Shown here: in pieces, positions 1,752-49,672 of the stretch
Position numbering within the stretch: position 1 is the first letter of the stretch
Layout: the number at the start of each line of letters is the position of its first letter
NCBI GenBank assembly: GCA_028289545.1
Contig: JANQPG010000107.1
Location: forward strand, 1-64,000
Direction: 5' to 3'
Source of the DNA: Woeseiaceae bacterium
GTDB lineage: Bacteria; Pseudomonadota; Gammaproteobacteria; Steroidobacterales; Woeseiaceae
Length of the DNA stretch: 64,000 nt
Program-made: the position numbers and the translations under genes
The notes under the pieces: model-generated
The model's input: only the letters and a program-made list of their open reading frames with translations
Database searches by the model: none
Told to the model about the DNA's origin: nothing

Positions 1752-1778
1752 TCAAGGTTCTCCGCCGTCCACCGATAA
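1752..1778 (+). promoter_or_regulatory. Sigma-28 (FliA) promoter of fliC
   Basis: TCAAGGTT, 11 bases, then ACCGATAA. Compared with the FliA consensus TAAAGTTT-N11-GCCGATAA, 6 of 8 positions match in the -35 part and 7 of 8 in the -10 part, with exact spacing. It ends 96 bases before the flagellin start codon. Flagellin transcription by FliA after hook completion is the standard arrangement. Confidence 0.85.
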
Positions 1779-1874
1779 CCCTCGTGACGGAGGTCCTGAA
1801 TGGATATCGCGGCCCTGTTATTCCGCGGCACAAGCAGCCCCGGGTATTACATTTTGTAGACAGGAGTTTTTGAA

Positions 1875-30369: not shown

Positions 30370-30417
30370 AGTGCGCTCCTCCGTAGTGCTCTGAGGCGGT
30401 CCTCGCCTCACTTATAG

Positions 30418-30444
30418 ATATCGGCAGTTGAAGGTCTGTCTTTA
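30418..30444 (-). promoter_or_regulatory. Sigma-28 (FliA) promoter of pomA-pomB-PilZ
   Basis: Read on the minus strand: TAAAGACA-N11-GCCGATAT. The -35 keeps the TAAAG core and the -10 matches 7 of 8 positions of GCCGATAA, with exact spacing. It is 48 bases upstream of the pomA TTG. Confidence 0.75.
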
Positions 30445-30553: not shown

Positions 30554-31693
30554 TTAGTCTTCTTTGAGATCCTCGAAAGAGAGAAACGCGGCCTGATTGC
30601 GGCCGTTTTTCTTCGCCTGATACAGCGCTGTGTCCGCGCGGTGCATCAGCGATTTGACGGTGTCGTTCGAGTGAATCTCGGTGTAGCCGACCGAGCAGGA
30701 AACCCGCGTGTCCTCGGACGCGTAGGGAATGCATATTTCGGTGACGGATTTGAGGAAGCGCTCGAGCAGGCCGACGCAGTTGGCCGCCGTCGTATCGTTC
30801 AGGATCACGGCGAACTCGTCGCCGCCGAAACGGGCCACGAGGTCGCTCTTGCGTATGAACGATCTCGCCAGGGCTTCGCCAATGCCGCGCAATACCTCGT
30901 CGCCCGCCGCGTGTCCGAAGGTATCGTTGATGTCCTTGAACTTGTCGATGTCGATCATCATGACCGTCACGGGCTGGTTCAGGATGAAGTGCATGTTGAG
31001 GCTCTGACTGATTGCCGAGTCGAATGCCCCGCGGTTGTACGCGTCGGTCAGTGCGTCGCGCTTCATTTCCTCGCGAGCAGCGACCAGGTCCTGGCGCAGG
31101 CTCGACATGCGATTGTTCAGCTCGTCGAGTTCGCGCTCGTACGCCTTGCGCTGCTCGTCGAACGTGTCGGTGACGGTTCGTATGGTTTGCGTCAGCGCCT
31201 TGCGGATCTCGGGCAGCACGCCGGTGCCGACCGCATCTTCGATGGTGTTCAGGCTCCGCTTGACCGATATCTCTGTATCGTGATCGCGTTCGCCGATATT
31301 CCTGAGGCCCGAAACGAGATCCTCGACTACGCCGCGATAGTCGTGCAGCCGTTCCGTGACAAACTCATTTTCTGCTTTCCGGCGATCGGCGAAGAAACGA
31401 CGAACACGCGCCCATTCGCGGCTGCCGTCCGCTGACGCAGGGATATCGAACGACGGTACGCCGGCACCGTTCTCGACATGCGCGGCGAACTCGGAGCACA
31501 TCTCCGGAAAGACGCCGGGGTCGATATCGTTTTCGAGCGGGAAGGACTCCTTGCCCATGACCTGCAGGACGTTGCTCAGCGTATCGAGTGCCCCGTCCGC
31601 AATGGCGGTCGCTGAGTTTGATTCTGATTTAGTGGCTTTCGGGTTCTTACCTTGGTTGGTGCCGTTACCCATGATTTTTGCAACAAGTGACAT
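30554..31693 (-). CDS. Diguanylate cyclase (GGDEF domain)
   Basis: A 379-residue protein. The N-terminal 200 residues are helical and probably sensory, without membrane segments; a coiled coil (near 180-215) leads into the GGDEF domain (about 216-375) with an intact active site GGDEF at 290-294 and an intact inhibitory I-site RxxD (RKSD, 281-284) five residues before it. It should make c-di-GMP from GTP and be product-inhibited. The sigma-28 promoter at 31760-31786 puts it in the late flagellar class. It lies between the stator operon and a divergently transcribed FleQ-like gene. Confidence 0.94.
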   Translation of the reverse strand: MSLVAKIMGNGTNQGKNPKATKSESNSATAIADGALDTLSNVLQVMGKESFPLENDIDPGVFPEMCSEFAAHVENGAGVPSFDIPASADGSREWARVRRFFADRRKAENEFVTERLHDYRGVVEDLVSGLRNIGERDHDTEISVKRSLNTIEDAVGTGVLPEIRKALTQTIRTVTDTFDEQRKAYERELDELNNRMSSLRQDLVAAREEMKRDALTDAYNRGAFDSAISQSLNMHFILNQPVTVMMIDIDKFKDINDTFGHAAGDEVLRGIGEALARSFIRKSDLVARFGGDEFAVILNDTTAANCVGLLERFLKSVTEICIPYASEDTRVSCSVGYTEIHSNDTVKSLMHRADTALYQAKKNGRNQAAFLSFEDLKED

Positions 31694-31759: not shown

Positions 31760-31786
31760 TTATCGGCGACAAACGTTGGAACTTTA
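31760..31786 (-). promoter_or_regulatory. Near-perfect sigma-28 promoter of the diguanylate cyclase gene
   Basis: Minus strand: TAAAGTTC-N11-GCCGATAA, 15 of 16 consensus positions with exact spacing, 66 bases upstream of the start codon. It is the best FliA site in the window. Confidence 0.9.
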
Positions 31787-31988: not shown

Positions 31989-32255
31989 ATGATCCTTGTC
32001 GTCGAGCGTGAGATGGCTGCCGCGAGCCGCCTCAAGGCCATGATCGAGTTTTTTGATTCTCCGCGGGTCGTGATGGCCCGGCCAGACAACTGGCGTCGCG
32101 AAATTGATCGCGACGCCGCGTCAGGCCGGCGGCTCGACGCTGTGTTTATCGGCACGGACCTCGAAGACAGCGAGATCGAAGAACTGATGGAGGCAGTTGG
32201 GCAAATAGATCCCAACGTGTCCATCGTAGTGATGGATGAAGGTGGGTTGAGTTGA
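31989..32255 (+). CDS. N-terminal receiver-like half of a split FleQ-like regulator
   Basis: An 88-residue polypeptide ([20 protein letters not shown] at the start) that corresponds to the first four beta-alpha units of the FleQ N-terminal domain. It ends with TGA at 32253-32255, and the matching last strand and helix of that domain are found at the start of the next frame ([20 protein letters not shown]). The two frames overlap by TTGA. No phosphoacceptor site typical of true receivers is evident, as in FleQ. Either two separately translated halves assemble, or the window carries a frameshift or sequencing error. Confidence 0.7.
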
Positions 32256-33406
32256 GCGTAAGCGGACTGAGAGATCGTTTCCCGTGGGCGCGGGTGCACC
32301 GTTTGGCCTCGCCGGTCAGCTTCGACATGCTGAGCGCCGTGCTCGAAGAAATTGCCGCTGCGCGAACGACGACCCGCAGGGACTCGAGGTTGACGGAGTC
32401 GAGCCGGCTGATCGGGGCGAGTGCCGATATTCGCTTGATCTGCGGACTGATCGATAAGGTCGCACCGTCTCCGGCGACGGTGCTGGTGACCGGGGAATCC
32501 GGTACCGGCAAAGAAGTCATAGCCCGTCGCATCCACGAGCTCTCCGGCCGAAAGGGACCGTTCGTAGCTGTGAACTGCGGCGCCATACCGGACAATCTTC
32601 TAGAGAGTGAACTGTTCGGTCACGAAAAGGGCGCGTTTACGGGCGCCGACAAAGCCAGGCCCGGCCGCTTTGAGCAGGCCAGCGGCGGGACGTTTTTTCT
32701 CGACGAAATCGGCGATATGCCCTCGGTCATGCAGGTCAAACTGCTCCGAGTGCTCGAGGAGAGGGTCGTCGAACGGGTTGGCGGTAACCGCAGCATCCCC
32801 GTCGATATACGGCTCGTGGCGGCAACACATCGTGATTTGCCGGCCCGCATCGAATCCGGTGAGTTTCGCGAGGATCTTTACTACCGCCTGAGCGTTTTTC
32901 CGATCGATGTCCCGCCGCTACGGGAGCGGCCGGATGACGTGTTGCCGCTGATCAACGAGTTCAGCCGCCGGTTGCGAGAGGCTGGGCTAGGCAGTCTGCA
33001 TTTCACGGCGCAGGCGATCGAGTCCCTGGAAAACTACAGCTGGCCCGGCAACGTCCGCGAACTCGTCAATCTCATTGAAAGATTGGCGGTGACGAACCCC
33101 AACGGCGTGGTCGACCGAAGCGACCTGCCGGGATCCATTGCCGAGGCTGTCGGCGCGGATGACGACAGCAGCGTGCAGGTGGTCGACGCGGCGCTCGGCA
33201 TGCGTGCCGGAGACATGGCGGTAAACCTGCCGGCTGATGGCATAGACCTCAAGGGTTACCTCGCGAATATCGAGAAACGTCTGATCGACAAGGCATTGCG
33301 AGAGTCGGATGGCGTCGTGCAACACGCCGCCAAAAAACTGGGCATGGGGCGGACGACCCTGGTCGAGAAAATCCGCCGTATGCAGGAAGCCAGCGAAACG
33401 CACTAG
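32252..33406 (+). CDS. FleQ-like sigma-54 activator, AAA+ and DNA-binding half of the split gene
   Basis: A 384-residue protein beginning with TTG at 32252, with AAGGTGG (32239-32245) six bases upstream. The first 45 residues complete the receiver-like domain; the AAA+ domain has Walker A GESGTGKE (81-88) and GAFTGA (127-132), and the C-terminal segment ([20 protein letters not shown], then [16 protein letters not shown]) is closely FleQ-like. The FleQ c-di-GMP motif ExxxR is kept as EFSRR, and the Arg after Walker A (VIARRIH) is kept. It is probably a c-di-GMP-linked regulator of pilus or surface genes, since the mshL operon follows. Confidence 0.85.
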
Positions 33407-33612: not shown

Positions 33613-35325
33613 ATGCTCGAACGTCCCGCCTCTTTGCTGTCCCCGGGTTCTGACGGTTACGCGAAGCCGCTGTTTTTGCGGCAACCGCCGCGTCGGCACG
33701 CGGCGCGGGTCACGGCCATGGCTGCGGCTGCGCTGTTGCTATCGGGTTGCGCCGGGCCGCTGACCGTCGGCCTCTCGAGCGGGCACGTCGTCGACGAGCC
33801 GGAGGCGCTTTCTCCGTCGCCAGAGCCGGTGCCTCCCGCGCCGGAGGTACCCGAGCCCAGTGCGCCGGAGCCCGTGCCGACCTACACGGTTGTGGTCAAG
33901 CAAGTACCGGTTGTCGATCTCCTGTTTTCCCTGGCGAGAGATGCGGGGTTGGACCTGGACTTCGAGGCGGACACGGGCGCTGTCGTAACGATCAACGCGG
34001 TCGAGCGGCCGTTGCCGGAAATCCTGACGCGGGTGACCGCACAGGCCGGACTGCGGTATCGCCTGCGGGGCAACAGTCTGCTCGTCCAGGAAGACGAGCC
34101 GTACTGGAAGAACTACAGCGTCGACTACGTCAACATCAGCCGCAACAGCGAAGGCGAGGTGGGTGTCGCGACGCAGATCGCCACGACCGGAGGGACGGTT
34201 GGCGAAGAACTCAGCGGCCAGCAAGGCGACCAGAACGGCAACCTTTCAAAGACCACGGTTCGCAACAGGTCCGAAAACGATTTCTGGGCCGCGCTGGAAC
34301 AAGGCCTGCTTGCGGCCGTTGCTGATATGAGCGGCGACTCCGAAGAAGCTGCTCCCGTGGCGCAGGATCCCGTCATCATCAACGCCATGGCCGGAATTGT
34401 CACTGTATACGGCAATCAGAGCGAGCACCTGCAGGTCAGCCGCTATCTCGACAGGCTGATGGCGAACTCGCGGCGCCAGGTGCTGATCGAAATGACGATC
34501 GTCGAAGTCGAACTCAGCGACAACTACCAGGCGGGCGTCGACTGGTCGAGGCTCGTCGCGGAGGGCAGTGACGGCCTCAGCATACGTTCGCAGCTCCTGG
34601 GACCGGATCTTCGCACGCCGCCGGCCTTTGCGATCGACTATACGGACACCGACTCTTCGGGCGACGTGCTGCAGACATCGGTTCGCCTGCTGCAACAGTT
34701 CGGTGACACGCGTGTGCTTTCAAGTCCGAAGATCATGGCGCTCAACAATCAGACCGCCATCCTCAAGGTCGTCAACGAAACGGTTTATTTCAACATCGAA
34801 CTCGATATCCGGGATGCCACTGCCGATATCCCCGAGCGACGCACGTTCACGACCGAGATCAACACGGTGCCGGTTGGGCTCGTCATGAGCGTAACGCCGC
34901 AGATCAGCAACAACGGTTACGTCAGCCTCAATATCCGCCCGACCATCAGCCGGATTACGGGTTTTGCCGTAGACCCCGCGCCGCGGCTTGCCGGCGTCGA
35001 ATTCGACAATTTGATTCCCCAGATACAGGTCCGTGAGATCGAGTCGCTGCTGCAGGTGCTGGACGGCAGGACCATTGTCCTGGGCGGCCTGATGCAGAAC
35101 GAACAGGAAAGCAAAAAGGACGGTGTGCCGGGCCTCTCGCGGCTTCCGGGCGTGGGCAGATTGTTCAGCTATAACCGCGACGACCTCGTGAAGACCGAAC
35201 TCGTGATCTTCTTGAAGCCCACGATCGTCGAGGGCGCCACGTCGCCCGCCGGCGCGCCGCGTCTGTCCGACTTCTATGACATCTCCGACGTCAGCGGGAC
35301 CGTCAGCAACGTAGAATATCGCTAG
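33613..35325 (+). CDS. mshL: MSHA-type pilus secretin MshL (outer-membrane lipoprotein)
   Basis: A 570-residue secretin. A lipoprotein signal ends in LLLSGC (Cys46 as the lipidated residue) and a Pro/Glu-rich stretch follows. An STN/N0-type domain (TYTVVVKQVPVVDLLFSLAR, about 90-165) precedes the secretin domain (about 255-545) with the hallmark VLSSPKIMALNNQTAILKVV and VPGLSRLPGVGRLFSYNRDD. It forms the outer-membrane channel for the pilus. Size and domain order fit MshL and GspD-like secretins of MSHA systems, shorter than PilQ. It opens a tightly packed operon. Confidence 0.9.
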   Translation: MLERPASLLSPGSDGYAKPLFLRQPPRRHAARVTAMAAAALLLSGCAGPLTVGLSSGHVVDEPEALSPSPEPVPPAPEVPEPSAPEPVPTYTVVVKQVPVVDLLFSLARDAGLDLDFEADTGAVVTINAVERPLPEILTRVTAQAGLRYRLRGNSLLVQEDEPYWKNYSVDYVNISRNSEGEVGVATQIATTGGTVGEELSGQQGDQNGNLSKTTVRNRSENDFWAALEQGLLAAVADMSGDSEEAAPVAQDPVIINAMAGIVTVYGNQSEHLQVSRYLDRLMANSRRQVLIEMTIVEVELSDNYQAGVDWSRLVAEGSDGLSIRSQLLGPDLRTPPAFAIDYTDTDSSGDVLQTSVRLLQQFGDTRVLSSPKIMALNNQTAILKVVNETVYFNIELDIRDATADIPERRTFTTEINTVPVGLVMSVTPQISNNGYVSLNIRPTISRITGFAVDPAPRLAGVEFDNLIPQIQVREIESLLQVLDGRTIVLGGLMQNEQESKKDGVPGLSRLPGVGRLFSYNRDDLVKTELVIFLKPTIVEGATSPAGAPRLSDFYDISDVSGTVSNVEYR

Positions 35326-35333
35326 GAGTCGCT

Positions 35334-36644
35334 GTGAAGAGTCCGCTGGTCGACGCACTCAGACAACTCGAAGACGGCGACGACAAGAGCCGCCCGCCTG
35401 GACCCGACAGAACCGGGGAAGAGGGAACACAGAGGCTCGAACTCGAGGACGACGCCACAAGGGACGCGTCGACAGCCGTCGATAACGCCGGCGAGGCAGC
35501 GACGGTATCGGACGAGAGTAGTAGCGCGCCGACGGACGGGACGGTGGAGCTGGCTCTGCAGCCGGACATCAGCGCAACCACCGTCAAGGTCGATGACTCA
35601 AGTCCGCTGGGCGGCACCTTCGTCTCCACGGGAGCCGCCAACGAGGGAGCTGGCGCGGTTGCCAACCGACGGTTTGCGTCGTCTCTACTGGGTGAACTGA
35701 CGTCGGAGCGTAAGGGCTTCAGTGCCGACACGCCCTATCTGCAGCGGGTGGCTCGCTACACGCCTCTGCTGTGTCTGCTGGTTGGATTTTGCGCGACTGC
35801 GATTTATCTCACGTATGCGCACGTGCTGAGCGCCAAAACGACCTTTGGTGTACTGCCGGATTCGTCAGATATGCGGACCAGCCCGGAGGCGGACAGCTTC
35901 GGCCGCGCTTTCGAGCTGCCGGTTGGTCCGGCCAGTGCCGCAGAAGCGCGCAGTGCACGCTCGGTGTCCGGTGTCGCACCGGCGGGCATTAAGCCGGAGG
36001 CTGCGGAAGCCGCCGACCGTTCTGCTGCGGGAAACGCGGCAGCACGCACCGTCGCCGTACAGGCAGACCCGGCGTTTGCGATTGCTAAAAGCGCTTACGC
36101 CGCGTGGCTCGACGGCAACGTCGTCAGGGCCGAAACCTTGTATCGAGAAGCTCTTCGCGTATCGCCGCACCAGCCCGATGCGCTGCTGGGTCTGGCCGCC
36201 GTGCTGTCCAGGCAGGGGCGTGCCGAAGAGGCGAACGACCTGTACCGAATGCTCCTCTCCGTGAATCCCGGTCATCCGGCGGCGGCGGATGCGCTGATGT
36301 CGACAGTGGCGGCCGGCGCATTGGGCGCGGAAGAGCTGGTTGCTCTGAGCGATCAGTATCCCGGTTCCCCTGAGCTCAGCTTTGCGATCGGGCGACGTCT
36401 GGCGGCCATGGGGCATTGGCCAGAGGCCCGCCTCCTGTTCGAGTCGGCGCTCGACCAGGCGCCGCTGCGTGCCGAGTATGCTTTTAATGCGGCCGTTGCT
36501 CACGACCGCGTCGGCCGATACCGCCAGGCCGTCGGGCTCTATACCCGGGCACTCGAACTCGACACGCGGGGCTCCGCTCCGTACAGAGCGGAAGCATTAC
36601 GGCGGCTGACCGAGCTTTCGACAATCGCGGTGCAAACGCCATGA
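35334..36644 (+). CDS. MshN-like membrane-anchored TPR protein of the pilus operon
   Basis: A 436-residue protein starting with GTG at 35334 (AGGAG nine bases upstream). The cytoplasmic N-terminus begins KSPLVDALRQLED, like GspB/MshN-type proteins, followed by a disordered acidic stretch, one membrane segment (about 143-163) and periplasmic TPR repeats (about 245-430: ALLGLAAVLSRQGRAEEAND). The place between mshL and mshE fits MshN. The MshM ATPase gene that normally lies between them is missing. It overlaps mshE by 4 bases. Confidence 0.75.
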   Translation: MKSPLVDALRQLEDGDDKSRPPGPDRTGEEGTQRLELEDDATRDASTAVDNAGEAATVSDESSSAPTDGTVELALQPDISATTVKVDDSSPLGGTFVSTGAANEGAGAVANRRFASSLLGELTSERKGFSADTPYLQRVARYTPLLCLLVGFCATAIYLTYAHVLSAKTTFGVLPDSSDMRTSPEADSFGRAFELPVGPASAAEARSARSVSGVAPAGIKPEAAEAADRSAAGNAAARTVAVQADPAFAIAKSAYAAWLDGNVVRAETLYREALRVSPHQPDALLGLAAVLSRQGRAEEANDLYRMLLSVNPGHPAAADALMSTVAAGALGAEELVALSDQYPGSPELSFAIGRRLAAMGHWPEARLLFESALDQAPLRAEYAFNAAVAHDRVGRYRQAVGLYTRALELDTRGSAPYRAEALRRLTELSTIAVQTP

Positions 36645-38368
36645 CGACCGTAACGCTACGTACGCTGACAAGCAGCGAGCAGAGCCTGCCGCTAGGCGAA
36701 CGCCTCATACGGGCAGGACTCATTACCGACGACCAGCTCCAGGTTGCGTTGACCGAACAAGCCAGGAGCGATGAGCCGCTGGGCAGGATCCTCGTCAAAC
36801 TCGGTTTGATCTCGGAGGGCATGTTACGCGACACCCTCGGCGAATCGCTGGGGCACGATGCGATCGATTTGTCGTCCGTGATACCGGATCCCGATGCGCT
36901 GCAAATGGTGCCGAAGAACATTGCGCGCCGTTACAGCATGCTGCCGATCAATTTCGACAAGAACCAAAAAATACTGACCCTGGCGATGGCCGACACCTAC
37001 AACGTCGTCGCAATGGACCAGGTAGCGGCGTTACTCGGTAGCGGCGTCGGCATCGAGACGCTCGTAGCGGGTGAGGCGGAGATCGAATCGGCTATCGAAC
37101 AGTTCTACGAGTTCGAGCTGTCGATACAGGGAATCCTCCACGAAATTGATACCGGCGAGGTGGATCAGCTTAACCTGGCCGTCGAGCACGAGGAATACAA
37201 CCATCCGCTCGTGCGACTGGTCGACGCGATCCTCGCGGACGCCGTAAAACGCGACGCGTCGGATATCCACCTTGAGCCCGAAGCCGGTTTCCTGCGCGTT
37301 CGCTATCGCGTGGACGGCGTGCTTCGGCAGGTCATGGCGCTGCATCGAAGCTACTGGCCCGGAATGGTCGTGCGACTCAAGGTCATGGCGCGCATGAATA
37401 TTGCGGAGACCCGCGCGCCGCAGGACGGCAGGATCTCGTTGACGCTTGCGGGACGATCGATCGATTTCCGCGTGGCCTGCCAGCAGACGACACACGGAGA
37501 GAACTTCGTCCTTCGCGTGCTCGATCGCAAGAAAGGGATTGTGCCGCTCGAGAAACTGAATCTCGTCAAGGAAACCCTGAGTACGCTGCAGGTCATGATG
37601 GCGCGGCCCGAAGGCCTCATTCTGGTGACGGGCCCGACCGGCAGCGGCAAGACGACAACGCTGTATTCGATGCTGAATTACCGCAACGACGAGTCCGTCA
37701 ACATCATGACGCTCGAGGATCCGGTCGAATACCCGATGAGCATGATTCGTCAGACGTCGCTCAATGAGGCGGCGAAGCTGGATTTTGCCAACGGTATCCG
37801 ATCCATGATGCGTCAGGATCCGGACATCATCCTCGTTGGAGAGATTCGCGACGAAGACACGGCCGAGATGGCGCTTCGCGCCGCAATGACGGGCCATCAG
37901 GTGTTCTCGACCTTGCACACAAACTCCGCGCTGGGCGCAATCCCGCGTCTCATCGACATTGGCGTCAAGCCGCACATCATGGCCGGCAACATCATTGGCA
38001 TCGTCGCGCAGCGCCTCGTGCGCAAGCTGTGCAGGCACTGCAAGCAGGCATACGCACCCGACGAAACCGAGCGGCGGCTGCTTGGCATCGACAGCGCCAA
38101 ACCCGTACTGCTGTACCGCGATCAGGGTTGCGAAGCCTGCAACTTCTTCGGCTACAAGGGCCGCGTAGCGGTTGTTGAAGTGTTGAAGATGAATCGCGAA
38201 CTCGACGAGCTCATCGCGCGCGGCGCCACGCGCCGGCAGCTCAACGAAGCCGCCAGCGAGACGGGCTATCGGGATCTTGCGGAAGACGCTATCCGGCATG
38301 TTCTGTCCGGCACCACCAGTCTTTCCGAAATCTCGCGGGTCGTCGATCTGACCGCGAGGGTGGGGTAG
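36641..38368 (+). CDS. mshE: Pilus extension ATPase MshE (PilB/GspE family)
   Basis: A 575-residue AAA-type motor. Two MshEN repeats lie at the N-terminus (LGERLIRAGLITDDQLQVAL near residue 18, and LGRILVKLGLISEGMLRDTL near 45); the GspE core has Walker A GPTGSGKT (331-338), an Asp box (LEDPVEYPMS), Walker B and the zinc-binding CxxC pairs (CRHC, CEAC). It powers pilus assembly. In MshE the repeats bind c-di-GMP with an Arg at the head of RLG; here both read PLG, so binding is uncertain. It is coupled to the preceding gene by a 4-base overlap. Confidence 0.95.
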   Translation: MTTVTLRTLTSSEQSLPLGERLIRAGLITDDQLQVALTEQARSDEPLGRILVKLGLISEGMLRDTLGESLGHDAIDLSSVIPDPDALQMVPKNIARRYSMLPINFDKNQKILTLAMADTYNVVAMDQVAALLGSGVGIETLVAGEAEIESAIEQFYEFELSIQGILHEIDTGEVDQLNLAVEHEEYNHPLVRLVDAILADAVKRDASDIHLEPEAGFLRVRYRVDGVLRQVMALHRSYWPGMVVRLKVMARMNIAETRAPQDGRISLTLAGRSIDFRVACQQTTHGENFVLRVLDRKKGIVPLEKLNLVKETLSTLQVMMARPEGLILVTGPTGSGKTTTLYSMLNYRNDESVNIMTLEDPVEYPMSMIRQTSLNEAAKLDFANGIRSMMRQDPDIILVGEIRDEDTAEMALRAAMTGHQVFSTLHTNSALGAIPRLIDIGVKPHIMAGNIIGIVAQRLVRKLCRHCKQAYAPDETERRLLGIDSAKPVLLYRDQGCEACNFFGYKGRVAVVEVLKMNRELDELIARGATRRQLNEAASETGYRDLAEDAIRHVLSGTTSLSEISRVVDLTARVG

Positions 38369-38372
38369 CAGC

Positions 38373-39575
38373 ATGCCGAGTTTCAGCTACCGGGCAGTCG
38401 ACGCCGCCGGCAACATTGTTCGTGGCGACCTCGAAGCCGCGAGCGAACGGGCGCTCGAGACGCAGCTTCGTCAATCGGGTGCGGAGCTGTTGCGCGCGGT
38501 GGAATGCCGCGGCAAACGCTTCAGGCGCCACGGCAGGCTGCGCCGCAAGGACCTGATCGGCTTCTGCTTTCACATGGAGCAAATGACCCGGGCCGGCTTG
38601 CCGATACTCGATGCGCTTTCCGATCTCCGCGACAGTACGGAACACCCGATGTTCAAGGAAGTCCTCGCGAGTCTGATCGGCTCCGTCGAAACCGGGCGTA
38701 CGCTGTCGCAGGCTATGGCGGAGTTTCCGGCGATCTTCGACGACGTATTCGTTAGCCTCGTGGCCGTTGGCGAGGAGTCTGGTGAATTGTCGGAAGTCTT
38801 GCTCAGGCTGACCGAATCACTCAAGTGGCAGGACGAGCTCGTCTCCAAGGCCAAGACGCTGGTCATCTATCCCGCGTTTGTCGGTACGGTGGTGCTTGGC
38901 GTCATGTTGTTCATGATGCTCTACGTCGTCCCGCAAATGGTCGACTTCATGCGTGAGATGGGAGAGAGCCTTCCGTTGCACACGCGAGCACTGATTGCGT
39001 TTTCGGATTTTCTGACGGCGCACTGGTGGTGGGTGCTGCCTGCTTTGCCTATGCCTTTCGTGTTGCTGAAGCTCGGCGCAGAGAGAAGCCCGGGCATACG
39101 CTACCGAGTGGACGACTGGAAACTTCGCGTGTGGCTTCTGGGGCCGATACTCAAGAAGCTCACGCTCAGCCGGTTCGCGAGCTACTTTGCCCTTTGCTAC
39201 GGCGCCGGCCTCAACGTGATCGCCTCGCTCAAGATCAGCGAAGACGTCGCCGGCAACGCGGTCATCCGCAAGGGTATCGCGGATATCGGGAAGGCGATTG
39301 CGGACGGCCATTCGCTCAGCGACTGTATAGAGCGCACCCAACTGTTTCCGCCCCTCGTTATCAGGATGGTGCGTATGGGGGAATCCACGGGTCGCCTCGA
39401 CGATTCGCTGCTAAAGGTGAGCTATTTCTACGATCGCGAAGTGAACGAGGCGATCGAACGACTCAAGGCAATGATCGAACCGGCGATGACCGTTGTGCTC
39501 GGCGCCATCATGGGCTGGATCATGCTGTCCGTGCTGGGTCCGATCTACGACACGATCAGCAACATGGGGATTTGA
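38373..39575 (+). CDS. mshG: Pilus inner-membrane platform protein MshG (PilC/GspF family)
   Basis: A 400-residue GspF-family protein with two T2SSF domains (about residues 60-185 and 265-390) and three membrane segments (near 165-190, 205-230 and 370-390). The N-terminus PSFSYRAVDAAGNIVRGDLE is typical. It anchors the extension ATPase and the growing pilus in the inner membrane. The gene starts 4 bases after mshE. Confidence 0.95.
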   Translation: MPSFSYRAVDAAGNIVRGDLEAASERALETQLRQSGAELLRAVECRGKRFRRHGRLRRKDLIGFCFHMEQMTRAGLPILDALSDLRDSTEHPMFKEVLASLIGSVETGRTLSQAMAEFPAIFDDVFVSLVAVGEESGELSEVLLRLTESLKWQDELVSKAKTLVIYPAFVGTVVLGVMLFMMLYVVPQMVDFMREMGESLPLHTRALIAFSDFLTAHWWWVLPALPMPFVLLKLGAERSPGIRYRVDDWKLRVWLLGPILKKLTLSRFASYFALCYGAGLNVIASLKISEDVAGNAVIRKGIADIGKAIADGHSLSDCIERTQLFPPLVIRMVRMGESTGRLDDSLLKVSYFYDREVNEAIERLKAMIEPAMTVVLGAIMGWIMLSVLGPIYDTISNMGI

Positions 39576-39577
39576 AG

Positions 39578-41164
39578 ATGGTCGGGCGGCGGATCTTTTA
39601 CGTGACTCAGGAATCCCTCACGGTGTTCGGTTCCGCCGGTTCCGGATCGGAGCATCATTTCACGGATGACAACAAGGGTATCGAGGCTTTCGACGCCTAT
39701 CTCGCCGAACGCCCGGAAGAACCCAGCGTGCTGCTGCTCGACGTGATCGAGGAGGTATTCGTCGCGGATACGATACCCAAGCTGACCGGGGGTGACAGGC
39801 GGACGTTGCTGGCACGTCGTGCCGAGCGTAAGTTTCCGAGAACACCGTTTCGAGTGTCGGTGTTTGCCGGGAAAAAAGTCGCGATCAGCGGAGGGGACAC
39901 GGCCGTGCATAGTGCAGTGTCCAATCACGAACTGCTGGAGTGCTGGTTGCAGCTCATCGCCCGTCACAAAGTGCCGCTCAAGGGCATTTATTCGGTGCCG
40001 CTGCTGACTGCCGACCTGCTGCCGCGTCTTCGCAGGCTCAAAGGGCCCGTGCTGTTTCTGACGCATCATCAGGGCGATAAGCTGCGGCAGGTTTTCCTGC
40101 GAGACGGTTGTGTGTTGAGCGCGCGCCTGTCCCAGTGTCCGCCTGTCGAATCCCCCGACAATCCGGAGATCGTCAACCAGGAGATCGACCGCAGCCGACG
40201 TTACCTCGAGCGATCAAGGCTACTTGGCGGTATGGAAGAGCTGCACGTGTGCATTGTCGCTTCGGAAGCGCAGGCGCAGGCCATCGTGGAGGCGCGGCAG
40301 GACGACGCGCCGCTCAGTTTGCACGTGGTGAGCCATCGCGCGGCCGCCGCCCGGTTGGGTTTACCTGAACAGCCCCACGCGGAGCATCTCGAGGCGTTGT
40401 ATCTGGCGCAGCTCCGGCGCCGGTTGCCACGACACAGTTATGCGGCATCCGGCGAGGATCGTCACTGGCGTTTACACCGCTTGCGGCAGTCGATCATTGG
40501 CGGGGCCATGGCGGCGAGTCTGGTCTGCTCGGTGCTGGCCGGCGGCTATGCCGGCAGTGCGTTACGGCTTGCGGACGACTCCGCTGACATCGAGCAACAG
40601 GTAGCACAGCTCACATCGACCCTCCGCCAGGATAATGCGCTGTACTCGCCAATACACGCCGGCTCACACGAAATGAAGCTGGCGGTCGATACCGGCGACT
40701 ATATTCTGGCCAACCGCGTACCGGTCCCCTGGGTAATGATCGAATTGAGTCGGGTTCTGGAAAGCCATCCGGACGTGCGTGTCGCCACGATGAGCTGGAC
40801 CTCCGCCGAACCCGCGAGGGCGGAGCCGGCACGTCGTCAAACGCCGGTTCAATCCGTTCCGGTAGCGCCGGTATCCCGCGTCGAAGCGCGGCTGGGTGCT
40901 GTGTTGGAGGGACACGATGCCGACCTTCTCGAGGGTTTCCGGCGCATAGAGATGCTGGCGGAGGCATTCAGGCGGGACAGCCGTTTTAGCGAGGTTGCGG
41001 TGATCCAGTACCCCATTGACGCGAGCCCCACCGCCGCGGTTTCCGGGGAAATTGGCGCAACGGCCGGCGATGACGGCCTGCGCTTCGAGCTCAGGCTCTC
41101 GTTTGTGCCGCCCACGGCGGCTGGCGCATCGGTCACGACGGAGGTTGGCGATGACACCGCATGA
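39578..41164 (+). CDS. Pilus alignment protein, MshI/PilM-PilN-like
   Basis: A 528-residue protein with a cytoplasmic N-terminal part of about 310 residues, one membrane segment (about 312-335: IIGGAMAASLVCSVLAGGYA) and a periplasmic coiled-coil plus ferredoxin-like part, a PilN-type topology. The N-terminal part lacks the usual actin-like DxGxxxxK start of PilM and was not recognised with certainty. Position between mshG and a PilO-like gene supports an alignment-complex role. The ATG at 39578 follows the mshG stop by 2 bases; the frame is open upstream inside mshG. Confidence 0.65.
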   Translation: MVGRRIFYVTQESLTVFGSAGSGSEHHFTDDNKGIEAFDAYLAERPEEPSVLLLDVIEEVFVADTIPKLTGGDRRTLLARRAERKFPRTPFRVSVFAGKKVAISGGDTAVHSAVSNHELLECWLQLIARHKVPLKGIYSVPLLTADLLPRLRRLKGPVLFLTHHQGDKLRQVFLRDGCVLSARLSQCPPVESPDNPEIVNQEIDRSRRYLERSRLLGGMEELHVCIVASEAQAQAIVEARQDDAPLSLHVVSHRAAAARLGLPEQPHAEHLEALYLAQLRRRLPRHSYAASGEDRHWRLHRLRQSIIGGAMAASLVCSVLAGGYAGSALRLADDSADIEQQVAQLTSTLRQDNALYSPIHAGSHEMKLAVDTGDYILANRVPVPWVMIELSRVLESHPDVRVATMSWTSAEPARAEPARRQTPVQSVPVAPVSRVEARLGAVLEGHDADLLEGFRRIEMLAEAFRRDSRFSEVAVIQYPIDASPTAAVSGEIGATAGDDGLRFELRLSFVPPTAAGASVTTEVGDDTA

Positions 41165-41783
41165 TCGCGACTGGCGTTTCGCATTTCGCCGCACCGGCAT
41201 TCCGCTCGTGACGATGCTGCTGTCCGTTGCGGCATTGTCTGCAGCGTTCTTCTTCCACGCGGAGCAGCGGCTGGTCTACGAGGCGTTGACCACGGACCAG
41301 TCGACGGTGCAGGAAGACTACGACGAACTCGTGCTGCGGCGCCGTTACGTCGATCGTTATCACGAGCGCTACCGGCAGTTCCACGCGCTGGGTTTTGTCG
41401 GCCAGGAAAGCCGGCTTGAATGGATCCACGCGCTGCGCGTTGCCACGGAGGACCTGACCTTGCCGCGTCTTGCCTATGCGATAGCCCCGCAGCTCGACGT
41501 GATTGCACCGGTGCAGGCGGTACTGGCGGGAGACGATATTGCGATCAACGTCAGCCAGCTGCAGCTGGAGATGGGGCTGGTGCACGAACTGGATCTGCTG
41601 CGGTTTGTCGACGGCCTGCAGCGCTCCGCGCCGGGCTTGATGCGAGTGCAGGGTTGCCGGCTGGACTGGCAGCAGCAGCCGGACGTATCGCTGAAAGTCG
41701 AGGCGAACCTGCAGGCGAGCTGCAGTGTCGAGATTTTCAGCGTCATCACGTCGGACGTGGAACAACAGGTGGCACAGCGATGA
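41151..41783 (+). CDS. PilO/MshJ-like pilus alignment protein
   Basis: A 210-residue protein with one N-terminal membrane segment (about 18-38: PLVTMLLSVAALSAAFFF), a coiled coil (about 45-85) and a small C-terminal domain, the topology of PilO/GspM/MshJ. It overlaps the preceding gene by 14 bases and the next by 4. Function is inferred from topology and neighbours. Confidence 0.65.
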   Translation: MTPHDRDWRFAFRRTGIPLVTMLLSVAALSAAFFFHAEQRLVYEALTTDQSTVQEDYDELVLRRRYVDRYHERYRQFHALGFVGQESRLEWIHALRVATEDLTLPRLAYAIAPQLDVIAPVQAVLAGDDIAINVSQLQLEMGLVHELDLLRFVDGLQRSAPGLMRVQGCRLDWQQQPDVSLKVEANLQASCSVEIFSVITSDVEQQVAQR

Positions 41784-42259
41784 GGTTTCTGAATTTGCTG
41801 CTGCTCTTGTCCGCAACGGCGGTGCTGGCCGACGGCGCCGTCGACAAGCCCGGCAGCGACGACGCGCAGCTGAGCCAAGAGACGACCCATAACTCGGCTC
41901 ACGAATCGGTTCACGAGTCGATTTATGAAACGATCGACGAGGCGCACATTGGACGTGTGTTCCTGACCCGCGAGGAACGCCGCTGGTTGGACGAAGCGCG
42001 AGCGCGGCCGGCCGGCAGCAGCGGCGAGCGCCAGGCCGTCGCCGTCGAATCGCCGAGGCAGGATGCGGGTGCCGCCGGTTTCATTCGCGTACCGGGTAAA
42101 GCGCCGCAGGTATTCCGCCGCGGCCGTTTTGTGCCGACCGATTCGTCTTCGACCGTCGGAGAACCGCTCGTGGACCGCCGGTCCGGCATTGTCATCCAGC
42201 GTCACGAAGCCTCGGAGGCTGCCGAGCGCAATAAAACGACAGAGGCGCGCGGGCCGTGA
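41780..42259 (+). CDS. MshK/PilP-like periplasmic pilus protein
   Basis: A 159-residue protein with a signal peptide (MRFLNLLLLLSATAVLADGA). The region GRVFLTREERRWLDEARARP recalls the start of MshK-type proteins, and a compact C-terminal stretch (FIRVPGKAPQVFRRGRFVPT) resembles a small beta domain. His/Glu-rich repeats (ESVHESIYETIDEAH) are unusual. Position after the PilO-like gene supports the assignment. Confidence 0.6.
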   Translation: MRFLNLLLLLSATAVLADGAVDKPGSDDAQLSQETTHNSAHESVHESIYETIDEAHIGRVFLTREERRWLDEARARPAGSSGERQAVAVESPRQDAGAAGFIRVPGKAPQVFRRGRFVPTDSSSTVGEPLVDRRSGIVIQRHEASEAAERNKTTEARGP

Positions 42260-43671
42260 TCGCTTCATGCCGGACCACCCAGAAAGGCGCTGCGCTGCTG
42301 CTCGTCATGCTCGTCATCCTTGCGGCGAGTAGCGCGATTCTGGTGAGTCGATTCGGCACAGCCCAGTTCGAGGCGCGTCGTGCCGTGGCAACAGCTGACG
42401 CGCTCTCCGAGGCCCGCGCCGCGCTTCTGGCTTACGCGGCTGCCGAGCCCGAACTCGTCGCGGGAGCGCCGGCGCGCCTGCCTTGCCCGGACCTGGACGG
42501 TACCGGTGGTTTTGCGCCCGGCGAGGCCCACACGAGCGCGTGCGGCGCCGTCGGCGAGAGCATGTTGGGGCGGCTGCCCTGGCGAACACTTGGGGTTGCG
42601 GCGCTCAAGGACGCATCGGCCGCTTGCCTGTGGTACGCCGTTTCGGGCGACTTCAAGTCAGCGGGCACGTCCAGCGCCGAGCTGCTGAACCCCGATACGA
42701 CGGGTGACTTTCGCGTATTCGACGCCGCTGACGGCAACCTGTTGGCCGGGGCGACAGCCGCCAGCCGGCCCGTGGCCCTGTTGTTTGCGGCGGGTCCGCC
42801 GCTTCCCGGGCAGCGGCGTTTGTCCGCAGGAGACGGCGGCTGCGGCACGACCGACGATGCCGCGCAATTTCTGGATGCTGTCGCCGCACTTGGCATCGAC
42901 AACGCAGCAGTGAGCGGCGTCCCCGATACGCTGCAGGATTTTGTGTCCGGGCGGGGCGCCGATTCCGGTATTAGCGACCGCCTGCTCATGATTCGGCGCT
43001 CCGAGCTTGCCGACATTGTCAACCGGCGCGACGACTACCGGAGCAGGCGTGAGGCGCTGGGCCTCGCCGTGACCGCCTGCCTTGCCGAATGGGGGAGACA
43101 CAACGGCGGTGGCGCAAACGATCGTCGCTTGCCCTGGCCGGCGCCGCTGACGCTGACTGACTATCGTGTGGACAGCGGCTACGACGACACGGGCAGCATC
43201 GACCTCGGGGGGCGGCTGCCCGACCGTGTCGACGACAGCGCGGCGGCAAGCGGCAACGCGCTGAACGACGTGTTGAGCGCCTGCGACAGCGTCGCCGTGC
43301 CGGCCTGGACGCCGGCCATGCAAACGCAATGGCAGCAGTGGAAAGACCATTTCTTCTACGTCGTTGCGGAATCGCATGCGCCCGGCGCCGCCGTTCCTTC
43401 CACATGCGGCAACTGCCTGACGATAAACGGAGCGGCCCAGTACGCCGCCGTCGTGCTGTTTGCCGGGCCCGCGCTCGCCGCTCAGACACGGACGGCGCCG
43501 CCGCTTGACGTCGACAGCAAACGGGATGTCGGTAACTACCTCGAGGGGCGCAACGCTCTGGCGTTTCCCTACGTGAGCGGCACACGAGACCTCGAAAGCA
43601 GTGCATCGACGTCGGCGTTCAACGATCTCCTGTTTTGTGTCGACACCAATCTCAACGTAGCACGTTGTTAG
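42256..43671 (+). CDS. Large PilX/GspK-like minor pilin
   Basis: A 471-residue protein with a short basic leader and a hydrophobic helix (CRTTQKGAALLLVMLVILAA) like PilX and GspK minor pilins, which lack the usual Glu5. The large C-terminal domain (over 430 residues) holds about ten cysteines that could form disulfides. It is much larger than most minor pilins and may cap the pilus tip. The start is GTG at 42256, overlapping the previous stop by 4 bases. Confidence 0.7.
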   Translation: MIASCRTTQKGAALLLVMLVILAASSAILVSRFGTAQFEARRAVATADALSEARAALLAYAAAEPELVAGAPARLPCPDLDGTGGFAPGEAHTSACGAVGESMLGRLPWRTLGVAALKDASAACLWYAVSGDFKSAGTSSAELLNPDTTGDFRVFDAADGNLLAGATAASRPVALLFAAGPPLPGQRRLSAGDGGCGTTDDAAQFLDAVAALGIDNAAVSGVPDTLQDFVSGRGADSGISDRLLMIRRSELADIVNRRDDYRSRREALGLAVTACLAEWGRHNGGGANDRRLPWPAPLTLTDYRVDSGYDDTGSIDLGGRLPDRVDDSAAASGNALNDVLSACDSVAVPAWTPAMQTQWQQWKDHFFYVVAESHAPGAAVPSTCGNCLTINGAAQYAAVVLFAGPALAAQTRTAPPLDVDSKRDVGNYLEGRNALAFPYVSGTRDLESSASTSAFNDLLFCVDTNLNVARC

Positions 43672-43684
43672 CAGGCTCGAAGGA

Positions 43685-44476
43685 ATGACGGACATGCGCA
43701 ACAGAACGGCAGTGGGACGGCAATCGGGATTTTCGCTTGTCGAGCTTGCGGTCGTCATACTCATCATGGGGCTGTTGTTGGGAGGTATTGCCTCACCCCT
43801 GTCCAAACAACGAGACAATGCCCGTTTTGGTTCTGCGGAGACCCAGCTCGAAGACGTTCGCGACGCGCTCGAGGCGTACTGGCTCGTCAACGGTGAACTG
43901 CCTTGTCCGGCGACGCCTGGGAGTAACGGCACCGCGTCGGTCAACGGCGGCGGGTGTACCCGCCAGCACGGGTTTGTGCCCGCGACGACGCTCGGGCTGC
44001 GCGGCAGCCGCAACGACGACAACCTTCTCCTGGATCCCTGGGGTTCGGTGCTGCGTTACAGCGTCTCGGCCAGTGACGCCAACACCAACGGGGTCTGGGA
44101 TTTTCTGAGCGACACGGAGGTCGCAACGATTACGCTGGCGGGGATGACTCCTGAGTTGACCGTCTGCAGCACCGCCGCCGGTGCCAGTGCTTCAGCCTGC
44201 GGCAGCAGCGGCGATACGGTGGCGAGCGCCGTGCCGTTCGTCGTCTATTCGCTGGGCAAGGATTGGGCCTCCTTTTCGTCTGCTGACCAGTTGGAAAACA
44301 CGGGTGCGACGGTCGCCGGCGGCCCAAGCGGTATTCGCTATGCCGTGTCGTCCAACGACGTATTTGTCATGCGCGGAAGGAGCGAAATGGTGGGTGCCGA
44401 ATACGACGACCTCGTGACCTGGTTACCGGCACTGGTGCTCTACAAGGCGTCGATAGATGGCGGCCATATCCCTTAA
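43685..44476 (+). CDS. Type IV prepilin-like protein with N-terminal methylation motif
   Basis: A 263-residue prepilin: the leader ends in Gly before FSLVELAVVILIMGLLLGGI, with Glu at position 5 of the mature protein, the classical prepilin peptidase site. The C-terminal domain is Gly/Ser/Ala rich with several cysteines (GELPCPATPG, GGGCTRQHG). It is likely a minor pilin. Two ATGs (43685 and 43694) are possible. Confidence 0.8.
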   Translation: MTDMRNRTAVGRQSGFSLVELAVVILIMGLLLGGIASPLSKQRDNARFGSAETQLEDVRDALEAYWLVNGELPCPATPGSNGTASVNGGGCTRQHGFVPATTLGLRGSRNDDNLLLDPWGSVLRYSVSASDANTNGVWDFLSDTEVATITLAGMTPELTVCSTAAGASASACGSSGDTVASAVPFVVYSLGKDWASFSSADQLENTGATVAGGPSGIRYAVSSNDVFVMRGRSEMVGAEYDDLVTWLPALVLYKASIDGGHIP

Positions 44477-44514
44477 GTTCATGTTTCACATGCGGTTTAT
44501 TTCTCGAGCTGGTC

Positions 44515-44541
44515 TAAAGTATTCGGCAGAGGCGCCGATAG
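44515..44541 (+). promoter_or_regulatory. Sigma-28 (FliA) promoter in front of the major pilin candidate
   Basis: TAAAGTAT-N11-GCCGATAG: 7 of 8 positions match in both boxes and spacing is exact. It ends 77 bases before the pilin start codon, in the only sizeable gap of the pilus locus. This is as good as the fliC site. Confidence 0.85.
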
Positions 44542-44618
44542 CCTGAGTAACGCGGGTCGGTTACGTCTCGCCAATGGCAACAGCGGCTTTCGCCAGCTGC
44601 GAATTGAGAGGAATTCCT

Positions 44619-45239
44619 GTGAACATTGAACGCTTAAGTCAACGCCGGCAGCGCGGTTTTACTTTGGTCGAGATTGCGATTGTGCTGGTTATTGTGGGTC
44701 TCCTGATCGGCGGAGTCCTGAAAGGCCGCGAAATGATCACGAACGCCAAGATCAAGCGTATAGAGAATGACTTTGCGGGTGTGTCGGCGGCACTGTATGC
44801 CTATCAGGACCGTTACGGCGTCCTGCCGGGCGACGACCCTGCTGCGTCAACGCGCTTCCCGGGGACGTGGCGGAGTTCCGACAATGGCAACGGCAACGGC
44901 AACATCAACGGTGGCTGGAGCAGCCGCAACAACAACGCCGAGTCCCGGAAAATCTGGAAACACCTGCGCGGAGCCGGTCTGATTTCCGGACCCGTCGACA
45001 ACACGGCAGCGTCGTACCAGCAGCCGACCAACGCATTTGGCGGTCTGACCGGTATCGATCTCGATCTCTACAACATGGGCGGACACAACATCGTATTCGG
45101 TGAGATCCCGGGCGATATTGCCGTCATCCTCGAGTCGCGCGGCGACGACAGTGTGCCGAACAGCGGCAGCATCCAGGCGAGCGCTTCGGCGACGTCCTAC
45201 GATGTCGACGCCCGCTACGACCTTGCCTTCCGGCAATGA
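44619..45239 (+). CDS. Major type IV pilin candidate
   Basis: A 206-residue prepilin. The basic leader RLSQRRQRG is cut before FTLVEIAIVLVIVGLLIGGV, with Glu5 present. The globular part has a Gly/Asn-rich repeat (about residues 85-110) and no cysteines. The start is GTG at 44619, chosen for GAGAGGAA just upstream; the in-frame ATG at 44574 would lengthen the leader to 28 residues. It has its own sigma-28 promoter and is followed by a terminator, so it forms a single-gene unit, as expected for a major subunit. Confidence 0.82.
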   Translation: MNIERLSQRRQRGFTLVEIAIVLVIVGLLIGGVLKGREMITNAKIKRIENDFAGVSAALYAYQDRYGVLPGDDPAASTRFPGTWRSSDNGNGNGNINGGWSSRNNNAESRKIWKHLRGAGLISGPVDNTAASYQQPTNAFGGLTGIDLDLYNMGGHNIVFGEIPGDIAVILESRGDDSVPNSGSIQASASATSYDVDARYDLAFRQ

Positions 45240-45300
45240 ACTTTAGCGGTGGCTCGATCGGTCACCGCTAGTCTTCGCTCTCTCCATGAGCATTGTGCGA

Positions 45301-45331
45301 GCCCTGCCTTCCCGGCAGGGCTTCGTCTTTT
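45301..45331. terminator. Terminator between the pilin and the convergent HDOD gene
   Basis: GCCCTGCC-N5-GGCAGGGC (8 bp) followed by TTCGTCTTTT. A second hairpin with arms TAGCGGTG and CACCGCTA lies just upstream (45244-45271). Both can serve the convergent genes on either side. Confidence 0.78.
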
Positions 45332-45350
45332 CGGGCACTAGAACCTGGTT

Positions 45351-47287: not shown

Positions 47288-49672
47288 ATGCCTGAATCCT
47301 CGGCGTTCGTAGATGTTGCGGATCTCGCCATTCATGTCGTGGATCTCGTCATTATCGGCGGTACGATCGCCATGCTGCTCTACTGCGTGATCCGCGGTTT
47401 TCTCAAATCCTCACGCTTCCCGAATACTGGACGTAACCTGCTGTTGCTCGGCCTGGCGCTGACCGTCACCACTCAGCTGGCCGAAGTGCTCCTGGCCTTC
47501 CTGGCCTCGACCGCAGTCGCCAAACCTCACTTTGTCGCGGCTACGCTGCCGGTGTGGCTGTCGTGGTTCTTATCGCGCCTGGGCCTGGCCCTTATGAGCG
47601 TGGGCGCGTTCATAGCGATTCTGCAGCGGCGCAAGCTGGCGGAATACATAGAAGAGTCGGACCTGATCGCGCAGGCTGCGCAGGATCGATTGATACAAAG
47701 CGAGGCAAGGTTCCGCCGCCTCGTCGATTCCACCAGCGATGCCGTGTTTTGCTACACCTACGAGCCCCCGGTACCGATCAGCATGCCGGTCGACGAGCAG
47801 CTGCGCGCGATGTACGACGGCGTGCTGACCGAGTGCAACCGCATGTTTGCCGAAGACCTGGGCTTTGCGAGTCCTTCCGAAGTGCTGGGTACCAGTTTCG
47901 GCGAGCACAATTCATCGCAGGACATCGAGAGCTTTGCCCGATTTATTGAAGCGTTCATCAAGAACGACTATTCGCTGACGGACTACGATCTCGTGTTCCA
48001 CACGAAAGGCGGCGAAGAGCGCGCGCTCCGGGTGACCTTGTCGGGCATTGTGAGCAACGGCCGCCTGTTTCGAGTCTGGGGCGCCGAGACGAACATCCTT
48101 GCATGGCGACGCACTCAATCGGCGCTCCTGAGGAGAAGGGCGTGCCAGGAACTGCTCGCGCGCGTGTCCTCGAAACTCGTCACGACGCCAATGGAAGAGG
48201 CGGACGATCTCGTCAGGGCATCGCTAAAGGACGTCTGCGACTTTATTGGCGCCGACCGCGCCGTTCTTGCCTGGATCGACTGGGATACCGGCGTGGCGAG
48301 AATCGACTACGCGTTTACCACCACCGACATCGAACTTCAGGACGAACTGTCGATGCGTGAGTACCCGTTCATTGCGAAACACCTCCTCGACAACCGGATC
48401 ATCGTGATCAAGGACGTCGACGATCCACCGACGGGTGCCAGGAAAGATTACGCCGGACTCAAGGAGCTGGGCGTCCGTTCGTTCGTGTCGGTTCCGCTGA
48501 TCGTCGCCAACGAGGTTGTCGGCGCCGTGACTTTCGGCGACGGCAACACGAGATCCTTCTGGCAGGACGACGAAGTCATTGCCGATCTGCGTTTCTTCGC
48601 TGAACTGTTTGCCAACTACGTGCTGCGGATCCGCTCGCGCCAGGAGCTCGATGAAGCGATGAACGGCCTGCGGCGGGCGACCGAACGTCTCGAGGCGGAG
48701 AACGTCTACCTGCGCAAGGAAGTGGACCTGAGCCACGGCTTCGACGAAATCATCGGCAACAGCGAGGCGATCCGGCGTTGTCTGCACCTGGTCGAGAAGG
48801 TCGCCGCGACCGAAACACCCGTGCTTGTGCTCGGAGAAACCGGCACCGGTAAAGAGCTTATCGCAAGGGCCCTGCACGAGCGCAGCGCGCGCAGCGACCG
48901 GCCGCTGGTGAAAGTGAACTGCGCGGCCTTGCCCGCCAATCTGATCGAGTCCGAGCTATTTGGTTACGAGAAGGGCGCGTTTACCGGCGCGGAATCCTCG
49001 AAACGGGGCCGCTTCGATCTGGCGGACGGCAGCACGCTGTTTCTCGACGAGATTGGTGAGATACCGGTCGAACTGCAGCCGAAACTGCTGCGTGTGCTGC
49101 AGGAAGGCGAGTTCGAGCGCCTCGGCGGTACACGAACGATCAAAGTCGACGTCAGGCTTGTCGCGGCGACCAATCGCGATCTCGGGCAGCGCGTCGCAGA
49201 GGGCGAGTTCCGATCCGATCTCTACTATCGCATCAATACGTTCCCGATCGAGCTGCCGCCGCTCAGGGAGCGGGGCGATGACGTTCAGCTGCTTGCCGAG
49301 CACTTCGTACGCATTCACTCGCAGCGACTCAATCGCGATGTTTCGGCGATTTCGGCGCGCATGATGCGGGAACTCCGGGGCTACCACTGGCCGGGCAACA
49401 TTCGCGAACTGGAGGGTGTCGTTCAGCGTGCGCTGATCGCAAGCGCCGGTTCGGTACTGGACCTTGCAGATCCGATCTCACCCGAAGCGGTTTCGCTGTC
49501 GAGTACGAGTCCGGACCTCAAATCCGTCGAGCGCGATCACATCGTCAAGGTTCTGAACGACGCCGGTTGGAAGATTGCGGGCGTATCGGGTGCAGCGGCG
49601 AAACTCGGCGTGCCGCCGAGCACGTTACGCTCGAAAATGAAGAAACTGGCCATCTCCCGGCCTCCTTCCTGA
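47288..49672 (+). CDS. Membrane-bound PAS-GAF sigma-54-dependent activator
   Basis: A 794-residue protein. Three hydrophobic segments (about residues 15-37, 50-72 and 80-110) anchor it in the inner membrane; a PAS-like domain (about 135-265), a GAF domain (about 290-440) and a coiled coil follow. The AAA+ domain has Walker A GETGTGKE (516-523) and GAFTGA (563-568), and the C-terminus a Fis-type helix-turn-helix ([19 protein letters not shown]). It should sense a small molecule or redox signal and activate sigma-54 promoters. No such promoter was seen near it, so its targets are unknown. Membrane-bound enhancer-binding proteins are uncommon. Confidence 0.88.

Follow-up and report, generated by a model that had tools for sequence, protein, structure and literature searches.

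A type IV pilin gene that lies downstream of a flagellar gene cluster raises the question of whether the flagellar sigma factor FliA (sigma28) directs its transcription, and thus whether a pilus is produced as part of the flagellar programme. The window analyzed here is the first 64 kb of a 195-kb Woeseiaceae contig (assembly size 5.07 Mb). It contains, in this order, the flagellar genes flgL, fliC to flhG (named by reading), fliA, motAB, a GGDEF gene, and a type IV pilus locus, which consists of genes for an MshL secretin, a TPR protein, MshE, MshG, PilN-like and PilO-like proteins, a conserved protein, PilinB, and PilinA (Table 1). The fliA gene is located 18 kb upstream of the pilin gene. 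Two sigma54-activator genes (32252–33406 and 47288–49672) flank the pilus locus, one of them directly before mshL. A two-tier scheme with a sigma54 promoter for the mshL operon was rejected, as the window holds 14 candidate sites, none of them before mshL, and shuffled sequence contains a mean of 10.

Table 1. Coordinates of the pilus locus, the flagellar regulator, and the putative FliA sites within the window
Feature	Position	Strand	Remarks
Weaker FliA-like site upstream of flagellin gene (1875–3314)	1752–1779	+	TCAAG-N14-ACCGATA
fliA, flagellar sigma28	25820–26563	+	TIGR02479, 262 bits (cut-off 189.6), matched 25892–26533
FliA box upstream of motAB	30419–30444	-	motA 29602–30411, motB 28711–29586
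FliA box upstream of GGDEF diguanylate cyclase gene (30554–31693)	31761–31786	-	
MshL secretin	33613–35325	+	TIGR02519, 256.7 bits (cut-off 250.2)
TPR protein, MshN-like by position	35334–36644	+	
MshE-type ATPase	36641–38368	+	c-di-GMP-binding MshEN domain
MshG/PilC-type platform protein	38373–39575	+	
PilN-like and PilO-like genes, by position only	39575–41783	+	41016–41780 without family match; other gene 39575–41164
Conserved pilin-locus protein	42256–43671	+	No family match
PilinB, second pilin-like gene, MshB-like by position	43685–44476	+	
Putative FliA (sigma28)-type promoter	44515–44541	+	-35 TAAAG(TAT), N11, -10 GCCGATAG
Possible transcription start	44549	+	A in 12/14 loci at same spacing
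Ribosome-binding site GAGAGG	44606–44611	+	GAGG kept in 7 aligned loci
PilinA, type IV pilin, MshA-like by position	44619–45239	+	206 aa, GTG start, prepilin motif G^FTLVE, no cysteine
Terminator-like hairpin and T-rich tail, 3' of pilin gene	45299–45333	+	Hairpin 45299–45323

The sequence-only reading had described an MSHA-like pilin, a label that fits the machinery better than the pilin itself. The secretin exceeds the MshL cut-off, and the ATPase carries the c-di-GMP-binding domain of MshE (NF053729, 65.5 against a cut-off of 38; PF05157, 47.6 against 23.1), with the GspE and PilB equivalog models remaining below cut-off. Tad/Flp-type pilus genes, as found in Bdellovibrio, were also considered and rejected, the machinery here being of the MSHA type. 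PilinA, on the other hand, is over cut-off only for N_methyl and a generic prepilin domain; a profile search against the PDB returned weak matches (E 0.0008 to 0.003), two of which are named type IV pilins, and its position beside PilinB fits MshA. PilinA would be the major pilin because of this position, its own promoter, and its own terminator. The pilus locus is physically linked to the flagellar cluster, next to motAB, a PilZ gene, and fliA, both here and in the four relatives with contigs that extend across the junction. This linkage, together with the generic model matches of the pilin, would also suit a non-adhesive filament that serves swimming cells (for example in secretion or in surface sensing for the flagellar motor), in which case the FliA box would mark a part of the motility organelle. 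We consider such a filament unlikely, as MshL is over the MSHA cut-off and MshE has the c-di-GMP-binding domain, as in the attachment pilus of Vibrio cholerae (PMC4624772).

Upstream of PilinA, TAAAGTAT (44515–44522) is followed after N11 by GCCGATAG (44534–44541). The FliA consensus is TAAAGTTT-N11-GCCGATAA, to which the site conforms at 14 of 16 positions, and the sequence check hence confirmed the match and the exact spacing that had been claimed. The pilin start is the GTG at 44619, which is preceded by GAGAGG and conserved in seven aligned loci, and not the ATG at 44574 of the ORF list; the distance from the site is 78 nt to the former and 34 nt to the latter. PilinB and PilinA are encoded on the same strand with a gap of 142 nt. 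In that gap (44477–44618) no terminator-like site was found, so read-through from the upstream operon is possible and pilin could be made without FliA. FliA would in that case boost the pilin without acting as a gate, a basal supply would come from the pilus operon or another promoter, and pili could be present before and without flagella, all of which is compatible with FliA control. Such a boost is distinctly possible, if somewhat short of an even chance: CRP-like or sigma54-like sites occur at pilin orthologs, one of which (L059) has a CRP-like site (9/10) just upstream of its FliA box, but no sigma70-type site was found upstream of PilinA, and the terminator after the pilin gene suggests a separate unit.

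Within the 5.07-Mb genome, the exact pattern of 12 core bases, TAAAG-N14-GCCGATA, is present 11 times and its reversed form is absent, whereas 38 sites against 34 for the reversed control are obtained when one mismatch is allowed, which is no clear excess. Eight of the 11 exact sites are positioned 8–82 nt upstream of a listed same-strand ORF start, and the other three are inside longer ORFs. The eight ORFs are PilinA, the GGDEF gene, motA, flgM, and the genes for a PAS-HD protein, a DUF1538 protein, a protein of 1743 residues with Ig-like domains, and a GspH/FimT-like protein. The flgM assignment is based on PF04316 (62.7 bits, cut-off 25), and its box is situated 39 nt upstream, inside the end of the preceding ORF. 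The boxes before the Ig-like protein (a possible adhesin) and the DUF1538 protein are found at G000:C2:22796 (-) and C2:17411 (-) (L036).

Two scoring matrices were applied to the window. With a matrix built from 22 sites mapped by ChIP-seq in E. coli (those scoring 10 or more among the rows listed in PMC4183435), the pilin site scored 21.8 and ranked third, behind the sites upstream of the diguanylate cyclase gene and motA, and 20 shuffled windows did not exceed 19.4. With a matrix of 13 motA sites (one per genome, this genome included), the pilin site was marginal at 14.5, compared with 14.6 for an intragenic site and 13.9 for the best of five shuffles. A chance match was rejected on the genome counts, the rank under the E. 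coli matrix, and conservation across 14 loci.

For this footprint, 14 Woeseiaceae-type loci were aligned on the box; L053, L054, and L059 were left out because, judged by length, they represent the same contigs as G006, G010, and G012. The sequence-only reading had pointed to an alignment of relatives as a check, and both boxes proved to be kept in all 14 loci, which are related to one another and do not represent independent events (G006 and G028 are 80% alike within the alignment). The common pattern is C-TAAAG-N14-GYCGATA, in which the C before TAAAG, TAAAG itself, the G, and CGATA are invariant and the second base of the -10 box is C or T in seven loci each. Mean pairwise identity is 1.00 for the -35 box and 0.92 for the -10 box against 0.29 to 0.31 for flanks and spacer, and the two boxes are nearly the sole conserved DNA upstream of the pilin. 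In addition, an A nine bases 3' of the -10 box is kept in 12 of the loci. When eight stretches were scanned (10 fetched, from six pilin-bearing relatives), the box, as GCCGATA or GTCGATA, was located only upstream of motA and PilinA; the GTDB locus L066 has one further box. The GGDEF gene is preceded by a box of at least 11/12 in seven of 11 genomes.

It is very improbable that the box has no promoter function, being a chance or an inherited sequence, or that it drives another RNA. The relatives do share ancestry, and 30 of the 52 FliA sites of E. coli lie inside genes, mostly without detected RNA (PMC4183435, accessible text). However, the boxes hold in 14 loci at a similar distance to the pilin while flanks and spacer fall to an identity of about 0.3, and a like box is present at an unlinked second pilin.

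The distribution of FliA itself was also followed. Among 37 genomes of the genus, 16 have FliA over cut-off; PilinA orthologs are present in seven of the genomes with FliA and in none of the 21 without (Fisher p 0.001), a co-occurrence that partly reflects linkage since the pilin locus adjoins fliA. The genomes of 13 of the 14 box-bearing loci, including six of the seven beyond the genus set, have FliA over cut-off, and the remaining genome (L065) bears the box yet shows no FliA over cut-off. A FliA-type promoter before the pilin, as had been proposed, is well supported by its conservation, the flagellar context, and the boxes at two genes that FliA targets in E. coli, motA and flgM. We consider it very likely that PilinA is transcribed by FliA.

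A comparison with more distant relatives was made on the best 80 of 513 GTDB loci, of which 79 were scored (L106 was too short). The ten loci with the nearest pilins are labelled Woeseiaceae in four cases and only Gammaproteobacteria in six. Among these best 80 of 513, all ten loci with a pilin identity of at least 71% carry the box at 11 or 12/12, and elsewhere only L071 does. In L071, whose pilin has 51% identity and belongs to another lineage, the pilin starts at 6535 and TCAAG-N14-GCCGATA is located 37 nt upstream; FliA control may have arisen separately here or may be ancient. L071 has a sigma54-like site as well. Six relatives with 67–69% pilin identity (L060–L064 and L068) all lack the FliA box and all have a CRP-like TGTGA-N6-TBACA. 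In each of these six, PilinB is upstream of the pilin; more of the pilus locus was seen in four, and the genomes of four have FliA. A sigma54-like TGGCAY-N6-TGY was detected in 14 of the 18 loci of one clade against three of 45 other loci, likewise within the best 80 of 513, 24–76 nt upstream of where the pilin match begins (L070, L072, L073, L075–L077, L080, L084–L087, L089, L092, L093, and also L078). Reversed controls gave 0 in every promoter class. The CRP-like and sigma54-like patterns were written after some of the sequences had been viewed, and their counts are therefore descriptive; the CRP pattern omitted TAACA, which is present in L059. There (the G012 contig, pilin start 1681), TGTGA-N6-TAACA precedes the FliA box by about 19 nt and is perhaps a remnant or the site of a co-regulator. 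Mostly, then, the promoter class before orthologous pilins appears to differ between lineages, being FliA-type, CRP-like, or sigma54-like. In the pilin tree, all but one of the 13 pilins with a box group together, with weak support, and the exception, L057, branches in a polytomy with this group and the CRP-type clade, so that the tree fits one gain or a later loss of the box alike.

It had also been stated that no pilin gene other than PilinA has a promoter and terminator of its own. This may hold within the locus and does not hold for the genome, where an exact box is found at a minor-pilin-like operon and a weaker box at a second pilin. The former is represented by the GspH/FimT-like gene, whose own family matches are below cut-off and whose neighbour's prepilin motif is over cut-off. 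The latter is part of a further, unlinked type IV pilus cluster, which lies on a different contig and comprises ATPase, platform, pilin, minor pilins, PilM-like, and secretin-like genes (partly named by reading). Positions for this cluster and for the GspH/FimT-like box are G000:C2:48280-48305 (-), L037, and G000:C2:32172 (+), L237, as well as L233–L243. Orthologs of the second pilin were found at 52% identity or more in 11 of 60 genomes, one of them (G038) with a stop inside the match. A FliA-like box precedes the gene in all nine genomes with FliA, which represent three families, and in neither of the two without (p 0.018). In the FliA genomes these sites score 10 to 12/12 (reversed 7 to 9) and are placed 64–79 nt upstream of the GFT codon, against 7/12 in the genomes without FliA; the site in the present genome is a weak one (10/12). 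Among the nine, the boxes show identities of 0.84 and 0.90, compared with 0.30 for the flanks. We take these boxes as a probable recurrence of FliA control at another pilin.

Such boxes are nevertheless not a general feature of MSHA loci. A total of 139 out of 369 genomes searched across the class exceeded the MshL cut-off, and one stretch was taken from each of 60, a non-random sample mostly from the top of the list. A pilin motif was present in 40 of these 60 stretches, several of which ended at contig ends. Only three of 122 pilin-type ORFs in the 60 loci score 11/12 (a Woeseiaceae locus that is, judged by length, on the L056 contig; L190; and L204), with the reversed control reaching at most 10, and the L204 site is not kept (8/12) in a genome of the same family. 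A FliA box as a general rule of MSHA loci was rejected on account of this rarity in the 60 loci, in agreement with the remark in the sequence-only reading that FliA control is not an established rule for MSHA systems. In L190 (G265), a canonical MshA-like pilin on the minus strand, near 14.9 kb, is preceded by TAAAGTTT-N11-TTCCGATA; this is a single case, and no pilin was found in the stretches fetched from its relatives L224 and L225.

With FliA as the preferred driver of PilinA, the pilin gene of an MSHA-type pilus would be a late flagellar (sigma28) gene in Woeseiaceae. The FliA holoenzyme would initiate near the candidate start, and a short pilin mRNA would end at the downstream hairpin. 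FlgM presumably holds FliA until the hook is done, after which the bulk of the pilin would be made, together with the stators (motAB) and the diguanylate cyclase, all three of which have FliA boxes in the window. The cyclase could feed c-di-GMP to the MshE-type extension ATPase, and a newly motile cell would thereby also carry pilin ready for landing. A strict gating of pilin production by hook completion, as had been proposed, is at most a plausible prediction, given the possible read-through from the upstream operon. The arrangement suggests that the equipment for surface landing and that for swimming are produced together, in one late step.

A wider scheme for the taxonomic order around Woeseiaceae would be the following: FliA would have become a pilin sigma factor; the pilins of two unlinked pilus systems, and not visibly their motor and secretin genes, would be under FliA; in one of these systems the promoter class would have switched between lineages; the pilin would be a late flagellar protein like flagellin; a FliA-driven cyclase would feed the c-di-GMP-binding extension motor; and one checkpoint would arm both swimming and landing. 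We propose this full scheme tentatively, with a likelihood just under even. In many descriptions c-di-GMP acts as a switch between swimming and attachment, seen as opposed states, whereas here, judged by sequence, the subunit of an attachment filament falls under the last sigma factor of the swimming programme. This offers a testable route to a cell that is prepared for attachment from the moment it can swim. The replacement of one type of site by another (CRP-like, sigma54-like, or FliA-type) upstream of orthologous pilins would, moreover, be a clear case of promoter rewiring.

Several known systems resemble parts of this picture, as far as the accessible parts of the cited papers show. V. 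cholerae shares the MSHA-type machinery with a c-di-GMP-binding MshE (PMC4624772), and its swimming cells use the MSHA pilus in landing (PMC7098655, PMC8282333, PMC4624772). Surface MSHA is lowered there by loss of the stator protein MotX and not of FlaA (PMC7098655). The difference is that the link between swimming and MSHA is discussed via c-di-GMP and MshE, and the accessible text of these three papers mentions no FliA promoter of mshA. In Vibrio fischeri, activation of mshB by FlrA was not significant (PMC3948606). The E. coli FliA regulon determined by ChIP-seq has the same box and spacing, including GTCGATA variants, and flgMN and motAB as targets, but no pilin target among the rows listed (PMC4183435). 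The pilE promoter of Neisseria depends on RpoN in commensals and RpoD in pathogens, so the sigma class of an orthologous pilin varies by lineage there as well, although the flagellar sigma factor is uninvolved (PMC6528607). In Acidithiobacillus caldus, type IV pilus genes are up in a sigma28 mutant, which is an effect of opposite sign (PMC6543871). Woeseiaceae MAGs from sediment have flagella in most cases and type IV pili in all, MSHA being unmentioned in the accessible text (PMC12175321). No study in which FliA controls an MSHA-type or type IVa pilin was found among the entries listed from an open-access library.

The closest precedent is Bdellovibrio, where FliA drives the Tad/Flp (type IVb) pilin operon, as determined by reporter fusions in E. 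coli (PMC5430801); in an earlier study, 92 of 140 promoters of the attack phase had a FliA-like site, with pilins unnamed in the accessible text (PMC3627812). The recruitment of FliA to a pilin is thus already known from one other system, and the likeness consists of a flagellar sigma factor for pilin genes, predicted here from sequence. Bdellovibrio, however, is a predator whose FliA has turned into a global attack-phase regulator and acts on a type IVb operon, whereas in Woeseiaceae the machinery is of the MSHA type and the putative promoter stands at the pilin gene itself. As far as we have seen, the MSHA setting, the conservation of the site, its reappearance at another pilus, and the exchange of promoter class between lineages are new.
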